A stretch of 38,330 nt of DNA, taken from positions 1 through 38,330 of the IMG/VR virus record IMGVR_UViG_3300037071_003297; one strand, given 5' to 3'. The position numbers and the translations under genes are program-made. The notes beneath the pieces were generated by a model. The model was not told the origin of the DNA, ran no database searches, and saw only the letters and a list, made by a program, of their open reading frames with translations. Shown piece after piece: positions 6,322 through 14,306 of the stretch (positions within the stretch are counted from its first letter, which is position 1; the number at the start of each line of letters is the position of its first letter). This DNA comes from a virus.

Positions 6322-7725
6322 CTAAAAGGGGACGTCCGCATCAAAATTTTTCAATGCAGAATGCAACGCTGTGAAAAGTTCTGCTTGCGTAACGTCCTTA
6401 CCTGCTAGTTGTTTGCGAACACGATGCTCAATAGTACCTTGTGCTAGGATATGGTAAACCCGCACGACCTGCGTCTGCCCCTGTCGGTACACCCGTGCTA
6501 TGAGCTGGATGTACTCCTCGAGGTTGTAAGTGGGAGAGAACCAGACCATACAACTACCGCCGAACTGCAGATTAAGTCCAGCAGCTGCGGCAGTTGGCTG
6601 CAGACATAGTACTTCTGTCTCACCATTGTTCCAAGCAGTTATCACATCATTGACTTCTTTGGCTGTCATACCTCCTTTAATAGCTTTAGCATCTGGATGC
6701 CGATGTAAGATACGCGTTAACTCATGTGTGAAGTTATAGGCAACGAGCAATGGTTCACCTGCCAGCTCTTCGATAAGATCATCCAGTGCGTCCAGCTTAG
6801 CATCGTGTAGATGCATAACTACACCGTCAACCGAGTACACTGCCCCTCCAGCAACCTGACGTAGCTTGCCTGTGAGGACAGCAGCATTCACAGCTGTGAT
6901 CGGCTGGTCGTCGATGTGGACAATTGCGTCGTCAGCGAACTGCTTGTAAAGGTCCATTGCAGATTTCGGCATTGTGACTGGCAAGTCGACATGCACGATA
7001 TCCGGTAGCTTCAGTACCTCTTCAGGCTTCAAGTAATGCGCTACAGTGGCGATACGCTCGTAGAGTATAGGTTTCAAGCTCGCGATAGGCCTCCAAACGT
7101 AGATATTACGCGGGTCCTGGACAAAGTACATCTGCCTAAAGTGGGTGATGTACTTGCCGAGTGATCTGCCCCTATCGAGTATCATCATCTGCCCAAACAA
7201 GTCCATCAAGCCATTCGCAGCTGGTGTCCCTGTTAAGCCAATGCGGTATGGGAAAGAGGGCAGCATCGGCTTCAATGCCTTGTACCTTAGACTTGACACA
7301 TGCTTAAGCTTCGTCAGCTCGTCGCAGGCTAGGACTTGGAATTGATCCTGGTCTACTCCGAGCTGCTTCATGGCCCACACCACACCATCGTAGTTAAGTA
7401 CAACTATCTGGAACTTCTTGTTACGCAGGACCTCTTCTTTACCAGGACCATGTGCTAGACCAATGCGGAGTCCTGCAAACTGTCGCCACTTCTTAGGCTC
7501 GGTCATCCAGGTTGTCTGTGCGACACGAAGAGGGGCGAGGACCAGCATACGGTAGTCGTATCCAAGTTCTAACAACCGTAAGAACGCAGCGAGTGTCGTT
7601 GGTGTCTTACCAAGCCCCGGGGCCCAAAACAGTCCTGCCCCGTTAGGGTGTGTTATGATCCAGTCTACACCTGTCTCTTGATAATCATGTGGCTTCCATA
7701 TTGGCAGACCAAGACTTGTGTTCAT
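6322..7725 (-). CDS. SNF2-family superfamily 2 helicase/translocase
   Basis: This 467-residue protein has the two-RecA-domain plan of a compact SNF2-like ATPase. Motif I is GLGKT at 37-41, motif II is DELT at 135-138 (in place of DEAH), and motif III is LTGTP at 164-168. Motif V is GLNLQF and motif VI is the QLIARVYRQGQ box near the C-terminus. It would move along or remodel DNA using ATP during replication or recombination. AAGGAG lies seven bases before the ATG. The start overlaps the VRR-NUC gene by 41 bases, and phages often pair these two. No accessory domain is fused to it. Confidence 0.93.
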   Translation of the reverse strand: MNTSLGLPIWKPHDYQETGVDWIITHPNGAGLFWAPGLGKTPTTLAAFLRLLELGYDYRMLVLAPLRVAQTTWMTEPKKWRQFAGLRIGLAHGPGKEEVLRNKKFQIVVLNYDGVVWAMKQLGVDQDQFQVLACDELTKLKHVSSLRYKALKPMLPSFPYRIGLTGTPAANGLMDLFGQMMILDRGRSLGKYITHFRQMYFVQDPRNIYVWRPIASLKPILYERIATVAHYLKPEEVLKLPDIVHVDLPVTMPKSAMDLYKQFADDAIVHIDDQPITAVNAAVLTGKLRQVAGGAVYSVDGVVMHLHDAKLDALDDLIEELAGEPLLVAYNFTHELTRILHRHPDAKAIKGGMTAKEVNDVITAWNNGETEVLCLQPTAAAAGLNLQFGGSCMVWFSPTYNLEEYIQLIARVYRQGQTQVVRVYHILAQGTIEHRVRKQLAGKDVTQAELFTALHSALKNFDADVPF

Positions 7726-7987
7726 CTAGTAGCTCCTTGAAGTCTGCCACGTTATCAATGACCATACTACGATGCCCTAGCTTCTTGAGCTCGTGCAGAA
7801 TGTAGTCCTGGAAAGGGCTGACGATACCACCATCGTCCCGCTTGAACTCAATCCAGGCAGTCCATCCACCAGGCATTAGCAGCACACGGTCAGGCCACCC
7901 ACGTTGCTTCTGGACTTTAAGAAGGATGCCGCCTACCTTCTTAGCTTCAATGCGACAGCGGTTTTCAATGCTTGATTCTGATGCCAT
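7685..7987 (-). CDS. VRR-NUC domain nuclease
   Basis: This 100-residue protein is a stand-alone VRR-NUC domain of the PD-(D/E)XK superfamily. The catalytic core is visible as WPDRVLL (Asp33) followed by AWIEFKR (Glu47, Lys49). The flanking GGILLKVQ segment and the SPFQ at about 57-60 fit the family. In FAN1-like enzymes this domain cuts branched or flapped DNA, so a role in replication or recombination intermediates is likely. GGAG is seven bases before the ATG. It lies between DNA polymerase and the SNF2 helicase, with which it overlaps. Confidence 0.9.
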   Translation of the reverse strand: MASESSIENRCRIEAKKVGGILLKVQKQRGWPDRVLLMPGGWTAWIEFKRDDGGIVSPFQDYILHELKKLGHRSMVIDNVADFKELLDEHKSWSANMEAT

Positions 7988-8002
7988 TATAGTTCTCCGC
8001 GG

Positions 8003-8242
8003 TTAACCTTCACGTACTTTAGTGCCGTGCATGATGAATCCATCGACTGCTTGATCCCATGCTTGATCTATCTCTTGTTGTCCTAACTTGCGAAGAGATA
8101 CCCATTGCCCGTCAGGGTGCTTGGTGAATAGCCATCCGTACCATTTACTGCCAGTACGAAGATCGGCGGCGCAGCTTGGATTTACTTGAAGTAGTGTCAT
8201 GCCATTTGGTAGTATATTACGGTGGTTAACTTCGCCTTCCAT
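8003..8242 (-). CDS. Small hypothetical protein (79 aa)
   Basis: This 79-residue protein has several aromatic and charged residues (GSKWYGWLFTKHPDGQWVSL) and a helical C-terminal half. I do not recognise the family. Its ATG shares one base with the DNA polymerase stop (TAATG), and the same 12-base leader GGAGAACTATAA stands before this start, where it is the end of the polymerase gene. An almost identical leader precedes the VRR-NUC start, so a short duplication made this gene junction. It is co-translated with the polymerase. No catalytic motif is visible. Confidence 0.7.
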   Translation of the reverse strand: MEGEVNHRNILPNGMTLLQVNPSCAADLRTGSKWYGWLFTKHPDGQWVSLRKLGQQEIDQAWDQAVDGFIMHGTKVREG

Positions 8243-10032
8243 TATAGTTCTCCATAACTGTGGCCGCGTGTCTCGTCACAGACAACCTCATACTCGAGTT
8301 TATCGGCGAAGGCGCCACGCATAGCCTTTTGAAGGGCTGCTGAGGCTTCGTCTGCCCCATCCTCAGGTGCTTCAATGATTAGCTGGTCATGGACCGTGAG
8401 TAGAAGTTCACCTGGAGAATCATCTTTTGCGAAGTCAAGCATTGCCTGCTTAGTCTGGTCTGCAGCACTGCCCTGGATGAGGTAGTTTGTGAGTTTATAT
8501 TCAAACGTCCATAGGCGATCGCCAATAGTTTTCGGTGGTTCGCAATAGTAGAGCCGGCCGCCAATGGTACGGATAGGCATGTTACGATCAGCCCGTCCTC
8601 TAAGCCCGTTTTGTAGCGCTTTAATCTCTGGTAGGGCTTCCATGTAGGCGTATTTAATTCGTTTTGCTTCGGGTTCGGAGATAGCGAGACTCTTAGCAAT
8701 TTTCGCAATACCGGCGCCATACAAGATAGCAAAGCCGAGAGTCTTGGCTTCTTTTCGCGTAAGGCCTGCAAGTTGGGCCGCAATCTGGTGTAAGTCCGCA
8801 TAATGATCCTCGTGAAGGGCAGAGAGCAGCTTTCCACCTGTGAAGTGGGCTAAGAGGCGGAGTTCTTGCGAGGAGTAGTCCGCGCTGATAAGAATGTTTC
8901 CCGGTCTTGCAATGATATAGTCGCGACAATTTGGTAAAGGAATGTCAAGTCTATACCCAATTTTGCCGAGCTGTCCAAGTAACTTCTCAAAGTCAGAGGG
9001 CATGTTTTGCATATTAGGTGTTGACGAAAACCGCCCAGTCCGTGCTCCAACCGCATCATAGTTTCGTACCTGGTTCCATCGTGGATAAAGTAGACCGCCT
9101 GTCTTCAGACCTGCCTCGTACCATGGCTGTAGAAAGGTCCGCAGACACGTTGCAAGGGCAGCGCGTACCAGTAGGTTCCCGAGCAAATCGGGCTCGGTCA
9201 CGGTCTCGATTAGGCTATCCTTACTGACCGATTCTGCCCCTTTAGCTGTCAGTAGCAGGCCTGTTGTAGCACCCGACACCTTTAAAGCAGTTATTAGCTC
9301 GTCCGAGTCTGGATCGATCGGGCCGAGTCGCTTCTGTATCTTGAGTGTCAAGTCAGCCAGCATAGCCTGGTACTTCGGTAAATCTGCTGCCAACCGTGGC
9401 ATATCCAGGAACACACCGCGTTGTTCCATACCAACGATGTGCGGCATGAGCGCCATTTCGCGGCGATATGCTTCGTGTTGTCCTAAGTCGAAGGACTCTT
9501 GATACTTACGATACAAGCCAAGAGTACGTGTGGTATCACCAATGGCATACGGTGACACTAATGGGGCAGGCGCCTCTGCGATATGCGCACCCCACTTCTT
9601 GTCGTTGGACTTGACCTTGCCGTTACTGATGAGCCATTGTCGCACGTCTTCCTGCTCGACTGGTGGCATGCCCAGGTGTACCGCCGAGAGTGGCTTGAGG
9701 GCCAGCTCCCCGTGTGGGTTATCAATGAAGGCCTGGACCATCGTGCATTCTACTTGGTCCCATGGTAGCTCAACTCCAAGTTTTTCTGCAGCAACCTGGC
9801 GATCGAAGATAGCGTTATGCATGACAAATTTACTTGTCTTGTCACGCGCCAAGGTACGGAGATATTCCGCCGCTCCAGCCTCAGTTCCATTATTCCCTCC
9901 AGGATGACCGAAGCTCGTATATGTACCCTCGTCATCATCTTCCTTTACTGCCAGTCCAACTGGCTCTGGTGGGTAGTCCGGCCGTTCACCAATCGCGTGT
10001 GTTTCAAAGTCAACCACAACTAATTCAGTCAT
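8242..10032 (-). CDS. Family A DNA polymerase with 3'-5' exonuclease
   Basis: This 596-residue replicative polymerase is shorter than T7 gp5 (about 700). Exo motif I is DFETHA near residue 8, exo II is NAIFD, and exo III is YAIGD, so proofreading should be active. The palm region shows TGRFSSTPNMQNMPS, motif A DYSSQELR and motif B KTLGFAILYGAG. Motif C reads TVHDQLI, keeping the metal-binding Asp but with Gln where Glu is usual. GAGG lies eight bases before the ATG. It leads an operon with the 79-residue protein, the VRR-NUC nuclease and the SNF2 helicase. It should copy the genome together with the primase-helicase at 17858. Confidence 0.96.
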   Translation of the reverse strand: MTELVVVDFETHAIGERPDYPPEPVGLAVKEDDDEGTYTSFGHPGGNNGTEAGAAEYLRTLARDKTSKFVMHNAIFDRQVAAEKLGVELPWDQVECTMVQAFIDNPHGELALKPLSAVHLGMPPVEQEDVRQWLISNGKVKSNDKKWGAHIAEAPAPLVSPYAIGDTTRTLGLYRKYQESFDLGQHEAYRREMALMPHIVGMEQRGVFLDMPRLAADLPKYQAMLADLTLKIQKRLGPIDPDSDELITALKVSGATTGLLLTAKGAESVSKDSLIETVTEPDLLGNLLVRAALATCLRTFLQPWYEAGLKTGGLLYPRWNQVRNYDAVGARTGRFSSTPNMQNMPSDFEKLLGQLGKIGYRLDIPLPNCRDYIIARPGNILISADYSSQELRLLAHFTGGKLLSALHEDHYADLHQIAAQLAGLTRKEAKTLGFAILYGAGIAKIAKSLAISEPEAKRIKYAYMEALPEIKALQNGLRGRADRNMPIRTIGGRLYYCEPPKTIGDRLWTFEYKLTNYLIQGSAADQTKQAMLDFAKDDSPGELLLTVHDQLIIEAPEDGADEASAALQKAMRGAFADKLEYEVVCDETRGHSYGEL

Positions 10033-12430: not shown

Positions 12431-12477
12431 CACTTCCTCCCTATCTCGAACAACGCACTAAACATGTTCGTAGAATC

Positions 12478-12483
12478 ATTATA
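12478..12483 (-). promoter_or_regulatory. Promoter-like element C (TATAAT), leftward
   Basis: The minus strand reads GTATTATAATGATTCTAC, a perfect -10 hexamer and the same downstream TGATTC as element B. No -35 hexamer lies at standard distance. It is 48 bases before the ATG at 12430 and should start the first leftward transcript from the divergent control region. Confidence 0.65.
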
Positions 12484-12564
12484 ATACTTTTGGAGACTTT
12501 GGTTATCACTTGGGCAACGTCATTTTTCGTGAATTGTCGAAAATTGTTGCGTCAAGTTATCCAA

Positions 12565-12594
12565 TTGAATCCAATTTTATCTATGTGATATAAT
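12565..12594 (+). promoter_or_regulatory. Sigma-70-like promoter, rightward
   Basis: TTGAAT at 12565-12570 and TATAAT at 12589-12594 are spaced by 18 bases, with an extended -10 TG at 12586-12587. It is a strong candidate host-polymerase promoter for the rightward early block. It would give a leader of about 200 bases containing the GTCAT repeats. Confidence 0.65.
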
Positions 12595-12635
12595 TAAAGA
12601 ATGAAAAACAGGTTACATCAGTGTCCCACGCGTAT

Positions 12636-12696
12636 GTCATATACCCACGTCATATGTGTGCGTCATTTTTATATTCACTGTTTATTCTGATGTCAT
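12636..12696. repeat. GTCAT repeats with 13-base spacing
   Basis: GTCAT occurs at 12636, 12649 and 12662 with exact 13-base spacing, again at 12692, and once further left at 12519. The flanks vary (TATGTCATATACC, CACGTCATATGTG, TGCGTCATTTTTA). The array sits between the two rightward promoters in the divergent spacer, so it may bind a regulator or a replication initiator. Confidence 0.5.
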
Positions 12697-12745
12697 TGTC
12701 GTGAAGTTCACGATTAATATGGCATCGTTTAGGTAACAAGTGCTG

Positions 12746-12778
12746 TATAATATACAATGACGCAAAGTCTTTTTGCGT
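12746..12778 (+). promoter_or_regulatory. Promoter -10 with 5' stem-loop leader, rightward
   Basis: TATAAT at 12746-12751 is followed by a perfect 7-bp hairpin (ACGCAAA and TTTGCGT, 12760-12766 and 12772-12778, loop GTCTT). This would be the very 5' end of the transcript. No good -35 is visible. The ATG at 12809 is 58 bases after the start of the hexamer. A 5' stem-loop could protect the early mRNA; a short terminator-like role is less likely because no T-run follows. Confidence 0.5.
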
Positions 12779-12808
12779 TTGAAATCAACTACTTACAGGA
12801 GTCCAATC

Positions 12809-13111
12809 ATGAAACTGTATGCACGCCAAGGCGATCTGGTCATTCACAACTACGTGGACGACAATAAGACTCTCACCCCTACCAATCATGTGTCGTGTGC
12901 GGGTGATTCTTCTGGCCATACGCATACCATCAGTGGTAAGTTGGCAGTTTTCCGCGATGGTCTCAACACCCGCATCAATGTTTTGGAGGACACGCATCTC
13001 ATCCACAACAAGGCAGGTGGCCATAAGTCCATCCCTCTACCGGCTGGGCAGTACCTCATTACGCCTAAGCGTGAGCGGGGCGATGCAACTGACCGTACGG
13101 TTACTGATTAA
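12809..13111 (+). CDS. Small QGD-type beta protein
   Basis: This 100-residue protein has the pattern ARQGDLVIHN near the start, SCAGDSSGHTHTISG in the middle and HKSIPLPAGQYLITPKRE near the end. I recognise this layout (a QGD start, a GHxH centre and a P-L-P-x-G-x-Y end) from a widespread uncharacterised bacterial and phage family, often encoded next to DUF6745 proteins. It should be a compact beta fold; the His residues could bind metal. I chose the ATG at 12809 with AGGAG seven bases upstream over the longer frame to 12773. It is the first gene of the rightward early block. Confidence 0.8.
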   Translation: MKLYARQGDLVIHNYVDDNKTLTPTNHVSCAGDSSGHTHTISGKLAVFRDGLNTRINVLEDTHLIHNKAGGHKSIPLPAGQYLITPKRERGDATDRTVTD

Positions 13112-13137
13112 TCTAGCACAACACAAGGAGAATCAAA

Positions 13138-13398
13138 ATGAACGGTGCACAACGCAGAGTAGTTAACACGATTATCGACGGACTTGGCCAAATTAACGTG
13201 CAGATGAGTGGTTATGCTGACCAGCTACAATATGTTATTGACGAGCTGCAAGAAAAGTATGACGACATGAGTGAAAAGGCTCAAGAAGGTGATAAGGGTG
13301 AGGAGCTTCTTATGACCATCGAGACACTTGAGAGCGTTCATGGTGACCTGGAAAACGGCCAAGTCGACAGCGCCTGCTACACTCTTCAAAACATCTAA
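13138..13398 (+). CDS. Small acidic coiled-coil protein
   Basis: This 86-residue, acidic, all-helical protein has heptad-like hydrophobics and the pattern QYVIDELQEKYDDMSEKAQE then GDKGEELLMTIETLESV. This matches from memory a common small phage and plasmid family with a helical hairpin and a turn containing GDKG or SEKG. AAGGAG lies seven bases before the ATG. It stands between the QGD-type gene and the DUF6745-like gene and is probably co-translated. Function is unknown; a dimer or adaptor is likely from the coiled coil. Confidence 0.8.
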   Translation: MNGAQRRVVNTIIDGLGQINVQMSGYADQLQYVIDELQEKYDDMSEKAQEGDKGEELLMTIETLESVHGDLENGQVDSACYTLQNI

Positions 13399-13409
13399 GG
13401 ATAACGACA

Positions 13410-14306
13410 ATGACAACCACTTTGAACGAGCTCAGCCCTGAGCAACTGCAGCTGTGCGACAACATCGCCGCTGAATTCATCTCGTATAACGAGTCACCGC
13501 TACCCATCAACATGGAGCACATCGAGCGTTGGCTGACCTTGTGCTACGGCTATATGCAACAGCCGATGGTCAAGGACATCCGTATCGTGGGTAGCGTGAA
13601 GGCAGCGCTGGCCCTTGCAACCGAGTTGACAGGTGTCGAGCAACGTAACTGCGACAATGTAGGGGCGAGTGACTCTGCATGGGTCGCCTTCTACACGGCG
13701 TGGCACAAGCTTGGTGTTCTGACTGACGAAGAAAGCAAGGATGTCCTGGCACTTAAGGACTTCATCTCATGCGCTTGGGACCACATCCTACTCGATGAGG
13801 CTGCGATCGTGATTCAACGACCTACCTTCAAGACCAACGAGCAACGTGCTTTGCACTGTAATGATGGTCCAGCAGTGACATGGCCTGACGGTGATACACA
13901 ATACTGGCTCAATGGTACGTACGTGTCCGAGCGTATTGTCATGCAGCCACAGTCTTTCACACGTCAAGAGTACCTCGACATCACCAACACCGAGATTCGT
14001 CGTGCGTATTGCCAGCATGTTGGCTACAAATTTGTCTTCGAACTGCTCGACGCAGAGGAAATTGATACATGGGTGGACGAAAAGACAGCACTCGTCTACA
14101 AGCTCTTCGCCTGCAAGTACGATCCGACGATCAAAATCCTGCAGCAGCTCTCGCCCCCTCTCGCGGATGGAAGCCAACCGGTTTATCTTGAGCCTGTCCA
14201 CGAGGACCTTCACACAGCCCAGGCTGCCCGTAAGTGGCAGGCAACGGAGTGGTCACCGGAAGACTGCGAAGACAATCCTGAGCTTGAGTACCAGTACGAG
14301 GCTTAA
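13410..14306 (+). CDS. DUF6745-like protein
   Basis: This 298-residue protein carries the hallmark of DUF6745 as I recall it: RALHCNDGPAVTWPDG, then YWLNGTYVSERI, then ITNTEIRRAYCQHVG and a later DGSQPVYLEP segment. In that family the first segment normally reads LHxEDGPAxxWPDG. The N-terminal 130 residues are helical and lack a family signature that I know. AAGGA lies eight bases before the ATG. The pairing with the QGD-type protein repeats a bacterial gene neighbourhood. No catalytic residues can be assigned. It could be a host-takeover or counter-defence factor, but this is only inferred from its early position. Confidence 0.75.
   Translation: MTTTLNELSPEQLQLCDNIAAEFISYNESPLPINMEHIERWLTLCYGYMQQPMVKDIRIVGSVKAALALATELTGVEQRNCDNVGASDSAWVAFYTAWHKLGVLTDEESKDVLALKDFISCAWDHILLDEAAIVIQRPTFKTNEQRALHCNDGPAVTWPDGDTQYWLNGTYVSERIVMQPQSFTRQEYLDITNTEIRRAYCQHVGYKFVFELLDAEEIDTWVDEKTALVYKLFACKYDPTIKILQQLSPPLADGSQPVYLEPVHEDLHTAQAARKWQATEWSPEDCEDNPELEYQYEA

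Follow-up and report, generated by a model that had tools for sequence, protein, structure and literature searches.

Putative diverged phage copy of a conserved two-gene QGD-DUF6745 module

The closest described counterparts of the locus reported here are a gene pair of Microcystis phage Ma-LMM01 and the bacterial neighbourhood of the STM4011-STM4015 genes. In Ma-LMM01, the pair gp175/gp174 lies between the genes for DNA polymerase and uracil-DNA glycosylase, adjoining the latter. In a published time course of this phage, the early genes are gp054-gp063, and gp178 and gp173, which flank the pair, are reported among the middle genes (PMC5780444). The STM4011-STM4015 cluster (two radical-SAM proteins, a hydrolase, STM4014, and the leucine-rich-repeat [LRR] protein STM4015) is uncharacterised; in the literature searched, one paper names any of its genes and none mentions DUF6745. 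Here, we report that a QGD-family gene and a DUF6745 gene constitute a real, conserved, and previously undescribed two-gene module, and that genes 1 and 3 of the present locus are, judged by their sequences, a very diverged phage copy of it.

The locus spans positions 12809-14306 of a virus record of 38.3 kb, the whole of which (38,330 nucleotides; the window) was analysed. The leftward block of the record carries DNA polymerase, helicase, and exonuclease genes; the rightward block carries primase, terminase, portal, and amidase genes, with the primase and TerL downstream of the locus. Three open reading frames, co-directional on the + strand and separated by gaps of 26 and 11 bp, open the rightward block, as a preliminary description had proposed, the divergent leftward gene starting at 12433, 375 bp upstream. 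Each gene follows a Shine-Dalgarno-like sequence on the same strand, read directly: AGGAG (12797-12801) for gene 1 (P0001; 12809-13111, 100 amino acids [aa], ATG start), AAGGAG (13125-13130) for gene 2 (P0002; 13138-13398, 86 aa), and AAGGA (13397-13401) for gene 3 (P0003; 13410-14306, 298 aa). The motifs described earlier were found in all three, namely RQGD and GHTHT in gene 1, GDKG in gene 2, and the GPA-type LHCNDGPAVTWPDG in gene 3 (residues 148-161; 13851-13892, + strand, by direct reading and alignment). The divergent intergenic region (12434-12808) contains a promoter-like TTGAAT-18-TATAAT (12565-12594), a type of site whose count does not exceed that in shuffled sequence; the sequence therefore does not show when the genes are expressed. 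Neither an RNA family nor a tRNA was detected in the whole window, nor were direct repeats within the three-gene locus.

Gene 1 was assigned to the QGD family, an unnamed family without a model in Pfam or NCBIfam, neither of which gave a match for P0001. A QGD profile from which the window had been left out matched P0001 at 34.6 bits (E value, 5.7e-10; columns 3-104 of 104) and matched none of 200 shuffles, the reversed P0001, or any other open reading frame of the window. The family alignment (74 sequences) has ten invariant columns (G8, D9, G32, G36, H37, H39, H66, H72, G80, and D100), all of which are present in P0001 as G-D, GHxH, H...H, and the C-terminal D; the Glu at position 68, nearly invariant in the family, is absent, and the histidine loop is longer than in relatives. 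The conservation of four histidines (37, 39, 66, and 72) makes a metal site likely. AlphaFold2 predicted an all-beta protein (mean pLDDT, 80.6). Fold searches of the P0001 and P0003 models against the PDB yielded no significant neighbour for either (best Z, 4.3 and 4.2); cupin chains occurred among the weak P0001 rows at Z 2.2-2.7 only, mixed with unrelated folds, and are a hint at most.

P0003 matched PF20530 (DUF6745) at 40.8 bits (gathering cut-off, 27; E value, 1.9e-10) over residues 85-277 and profile positions 11-192 of 206, which bears out the proposal that the 298-residue protein belongs to DUF6745. Residues N193, E195, R197, R198, G205, Y259, V263, and P265 fall in columns at least 90% conserved, the C-terminal N.E.RR......G and Y..RV.P-type positions of the family. 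The AlphaFold2 model (mean pLDDT, 82.4) has helices to about residue 119, then a beta-rich middle region that includes the GPA motif, and last an alpha/beta C-terminal part. Over its last 122 codons, P0003 differs from a partial sister contig (L002) by 22 synonymous and 8 non-synonymous codon changes, with 27 of 38 differences at third positions, a pattern indicating a constrained coding gene under purifying selection. DUF6745 is uncommon (4/149, 3/299, 18/194, and 6/246 genomes in four phyla, the centre genome included in each); in one actinobacterial family it occurs in 76 of 151 genomes. The N-terminal part varies, with LRRs in many bacteria and a helical region plus arrays in most phages. 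Two virus contigs taken up as family leads proved false: L004 had a tail-fibre GHTHT match, and L003 (62 kb) encodes, at 7280-9494 just upstream of an ATPase-like gene, small proteins of HRxDGPA-type repeats that resemble the GPA motif of DUF6745.

Searches of cultured phages with P0003 and P0001 (tblastn) gave no matches. The family was opened by a tblastn match of P0003 on one Deinococcus plasmid, where the DUF6745 gene is preceded by a 98-aa protein of P0001-like layout (RxGD...GHxH...H..EH..LPxGxY...D). This protein led to relatives on plasmids of Deinococcus, Methylobacterium, Streptomyces, Nonomuraea, and Skermanella and in Microcystis phages, and a DUF6745-type protein adjoins QGD in every plasmid or phage record inspected (13 of 13 QGD genes in named records, two window-derived loci counted). 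Collection scans were run with alignment subsets A3 and A4, and the best 80 of 521 (genomes) and best 80 of 241 (viruses) confirmed relatives were inspected. The genome loci held 81 QGD genes, 80 adjoining DUF6745 and 1 at a contig end; the virus loci also held 81, 53 adjoining DUF6745 and 28 at contig ends. Wherever the flank sufficed, QGD was thus beside DUF6745 (80/80 in genomes, 53/53 in virus contigs) among the best 80 loci per scan, beyond which a distant unpaired QGD could be missed.

Starting from DUF6745, QGD was alongside in 59 of 74 loci overall and, in the least biased sample (34 loci, after removal of QGD-selected loci and the densely sampled actinobacterial family), alongside in 19 and absent in 15, with flanks of about 1.5 kb in both cases. 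Lone DUF6745 copies are mainly from cyanobacteria with several DUF6745 genes. Since DUF6745 stands alone in 15/34 loci and QGD in none of those inspected that had enough flank, QGD appears to need DUF6745 more than the reverse. By locus titles, the pair spans many bacterial phyla, and many loci are tight operons whose genes overlap or lie a few bases apart; the window pair is on one strand with an 86-aa gene between, and most other loci have no intervening gene. The earlier statement that the first and third families lie side by side in bacterial genomes was correct and extends to other phages, and neither doubt raised with it, a missing DUF6745 match or a pairing not conserved elsewhere, was borne out. 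Kept side by side in this way, the two genes are probably a working unit.

The middle gene stands apart. P0002 matched phrog_4068 (E value, 2e-10) over nearly its whole length, and P0002-like proteins of this helical phage family occur in 14 cultured phages; six neighbourhoods fetched from these phages contained no QGD or DUF6745, and phmmer with P0002 across viral QGD-DUF6745 loci gave no matches. The proposed functional trio is therefore rejected in favour of a pair, gene 2 belonging to a separate small family found without the other two in those six neighbourhoods, and gene 2 is probably an unrelated passenger. Microcystis phage contigs (L103-L108) carry a different small helical open reading frame between QGD and DUF6745, and the slot seems tolerant of insertions.

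The bacterial pair often adjoins STM4011-STM4015 genes, and this neighbourhood recurs in several phyla (L023, L025, L053, L065, L070, L083, L086, and others); in cyanobacteria and Hymenobacter, the pair adjoins a vWA protein. Neighbours of the phage pair include integrase, primase, helicase, exonuclease, annealing/recombination, and terminase genes. The flanks covered of three DNA-polymerase relatives (L183-L185) contained neither family. A tree built from 80 joined QGD and DUF6745 domains showed phages and bacteria clustered but intermixed, with actinobacterial copies inside a mostly phage group. The window pair formed a very long branch (4.1 changes per column; highest identity, 29%), and with bootstrap values not settled its position is not informative. 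The preliminary description had the unit captured by the phage; recent capture from a bacterium finds no support, given this branch and the nesting of actinobacterial pairs among phage pairs.

Tandem arrays were found in 38 of 52 complete phage DUF6745 proteins and in 0 of 79 bacterial ones; the window gene has none. Their units are three or four residues long; in each unit one or two codons vary and the others are nearly invariant, as in RDQVWAQV, RAATYAAT, and DARDALAAR (virus contigs L114-L182, e.g., L147, L156, L114, and L120). Two contig pairs, L119/L120 and L142/L143, have flanks identical for at least 2 kb on each side and differ almost only by in-frame array changes (171 and 36 nucleotides, respectively), the second pair also by one residue within the array; these differences suggest either fast expansion and contraction of arrays or assembly collapse of repeats. 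The 28 virus contigs that end just past QGD break off, so far as their translated ends show, inside an array or where one begins (e.g., L112, L113, L121, L139, and L162), and many phage genomes are probably broken at such arrays during metagenome assembly. Outside DUF6745, QV-type tetrapeptide arrays occur in other virus contigs as short stand-alone open reading frames (L266, L276, L281, L295, L311, L319, and L333), with no QGD or DUF6745 in the stretches covered. PADLOC and tape-measure matches in L133 lie in or around its repeat array, are probably composition artefacts, and were set aside. The arrays lie outside the main finding and may be the more novel lead.

What the pair does was weighed among several readings. 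Early host takeover or counter-defence, as first proposed, would have it neutralise a host factor just after entry; its place among the first genes of the divergent block, its patchy spread in bacteria and phages, and the variable arrays of phage copies, which would suit an arms race, are in keeping with this. However, gp175/gp174 fall outside the early genes of Ma-LMM01 (gp054-gp063; PMC5780444), which by analogy argues against an early role in the window phage; other phages have the pair near replication, recombination, integrase, and packaging (terminase) genes; the sequence gives no evidence of timing; and PADLOC (library to 2023) gave no match for P0001-P0003, other QGD, or non-array DUF6745 proteins. 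We consider this reading unlikely, and give the same credence to a DNA-metabolism accessory that helps to replicate or repair phage DNA or to switch to packaging. The latter draws on the Ma-LMM01 pair, near DNA polymerase and adjoining uracil-DNA glycosylase, both reported as middle genes (PMC5780444), and on primase, helicase, exonuclease, annealing-protein, and terminase genes nearby elsewhere, but bacterial copies recur in the company of STM4011-STM4015 or vWA genes, not of replication genes, and no nucleic-acid-binding family was matched. Distinctly more doubtful is a toxin-antitoxin or poison-antidote pair in which QGD would be the active partner, held in check by DUF6745. Tight operons with overlaps or few-base gaps in many loci, carriage on plasmids and phages, and a QGD never seen alone beside a DUF6745 that can be (in the loci inspected) would fit it; yet no known toxin fold or family was matched, a large DUF6745 with LRR or array domains would be an unusual antitoxin, and the recurrent STM4011-STM4015 neighbourhood of bacterial copies is not typical of such systems.

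We tentatively favour, at somewhat less than even confidence, a reading in which genes 1 and 3 make up a diverged phage-borne QGD-DUF6745 module whose products form a complex acting as a non-essential, replication-phase accessory. Beyond the observed family memberships, pairing, and invariant histidines, we infer that the two products join in one complex. QGD would be a small beta-barrel in which the four histidines hold a metal, and in DUF6745 the conserved C-terminal domain would follow an N-terminal part that can be exchanged: many bacteria have LRRs there, most phages a helical domain together with a variable array, and this part probably selects a partner molecule. QGD would depend on DUF6745, which can occur alone; gene 2 would be a co-transcribed passenger; and the phage pair may act during the replication phase, with a protein or nucleoprotein of host or phage as its target. 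The module reading draws on pairing at every QGD locus with room for it, on the ten invariant columns with their four histidines, on the absence of QGD without DUF6745 among the loci inspected, and on the N-terminal exchange; the replication-phase role draws on replication, recombination, and terminase neighbours and on the primase and TerL downstream in the window. Counted against it are the lack of a significant fold match, the missing Glu 68 and longer histidine loop of P0001, and bacterial neighbours (STM4011-STM4015 and vWA) that do not point to phage replication. In a further reading, which we hold to be very unlikely, the pair is a recognition module in which the DUF6745 N-terminal part is a swappable reader, made of LRRs in bacteria and, in most phages, of a tri-/tetrapeptide array with one or two variable residues per unit; the phage array would lengthen, shorten, and re-sort by recombination, by which phages would retune the specificity of a metal-bearing QGD partner, the window copy being array-free.

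Because the pairing is strict in many bacterial phyla and in unrelated phages, and ten residues of the smaller partner do not vary, the pair offers a strong lead to a new biochemical unit, to which the variable phage arrays add a possible fast-evolving recognition part. Complex formation and the metal site are the most testable predictions of the module reading, and phage pairs as compact as that of the window (about 100 aa for QGD and 300 aa for DUF6745) are handy for biochemistry.

Compared with known families and systems, P0003 shares 17-25% identity with the relatives aligned and differs from PF20530 in a longer acidic C-terminal tail and in having neither LRR nor array. Gene 2 agrees with phrog_4068 by its P0002 match, but that small phage family is not tied to QGD or DUF6745. 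The bacterial pair beside STM4011-STM4015 (Deinococcus, Methylobacterium, Streptomyces, and Planctomycetota) has the same families in the same order as the window; its DUF6745 carries an LRR or actinobacterial N-terminal part, unlike that of the window, and no phage pair was seen with its radical-SAM, STM4014, or hydrolase neighbours. Ma-LMM01 gp175/gp174 (phrog_27831/phrog_31813) resembles the window pair in being phage-borne, with QGD followed by a DUF6745-type gene in the same order, and differs in having no gene between the two and in its place between DNA polymerase and uracil-DNA glycosylase.
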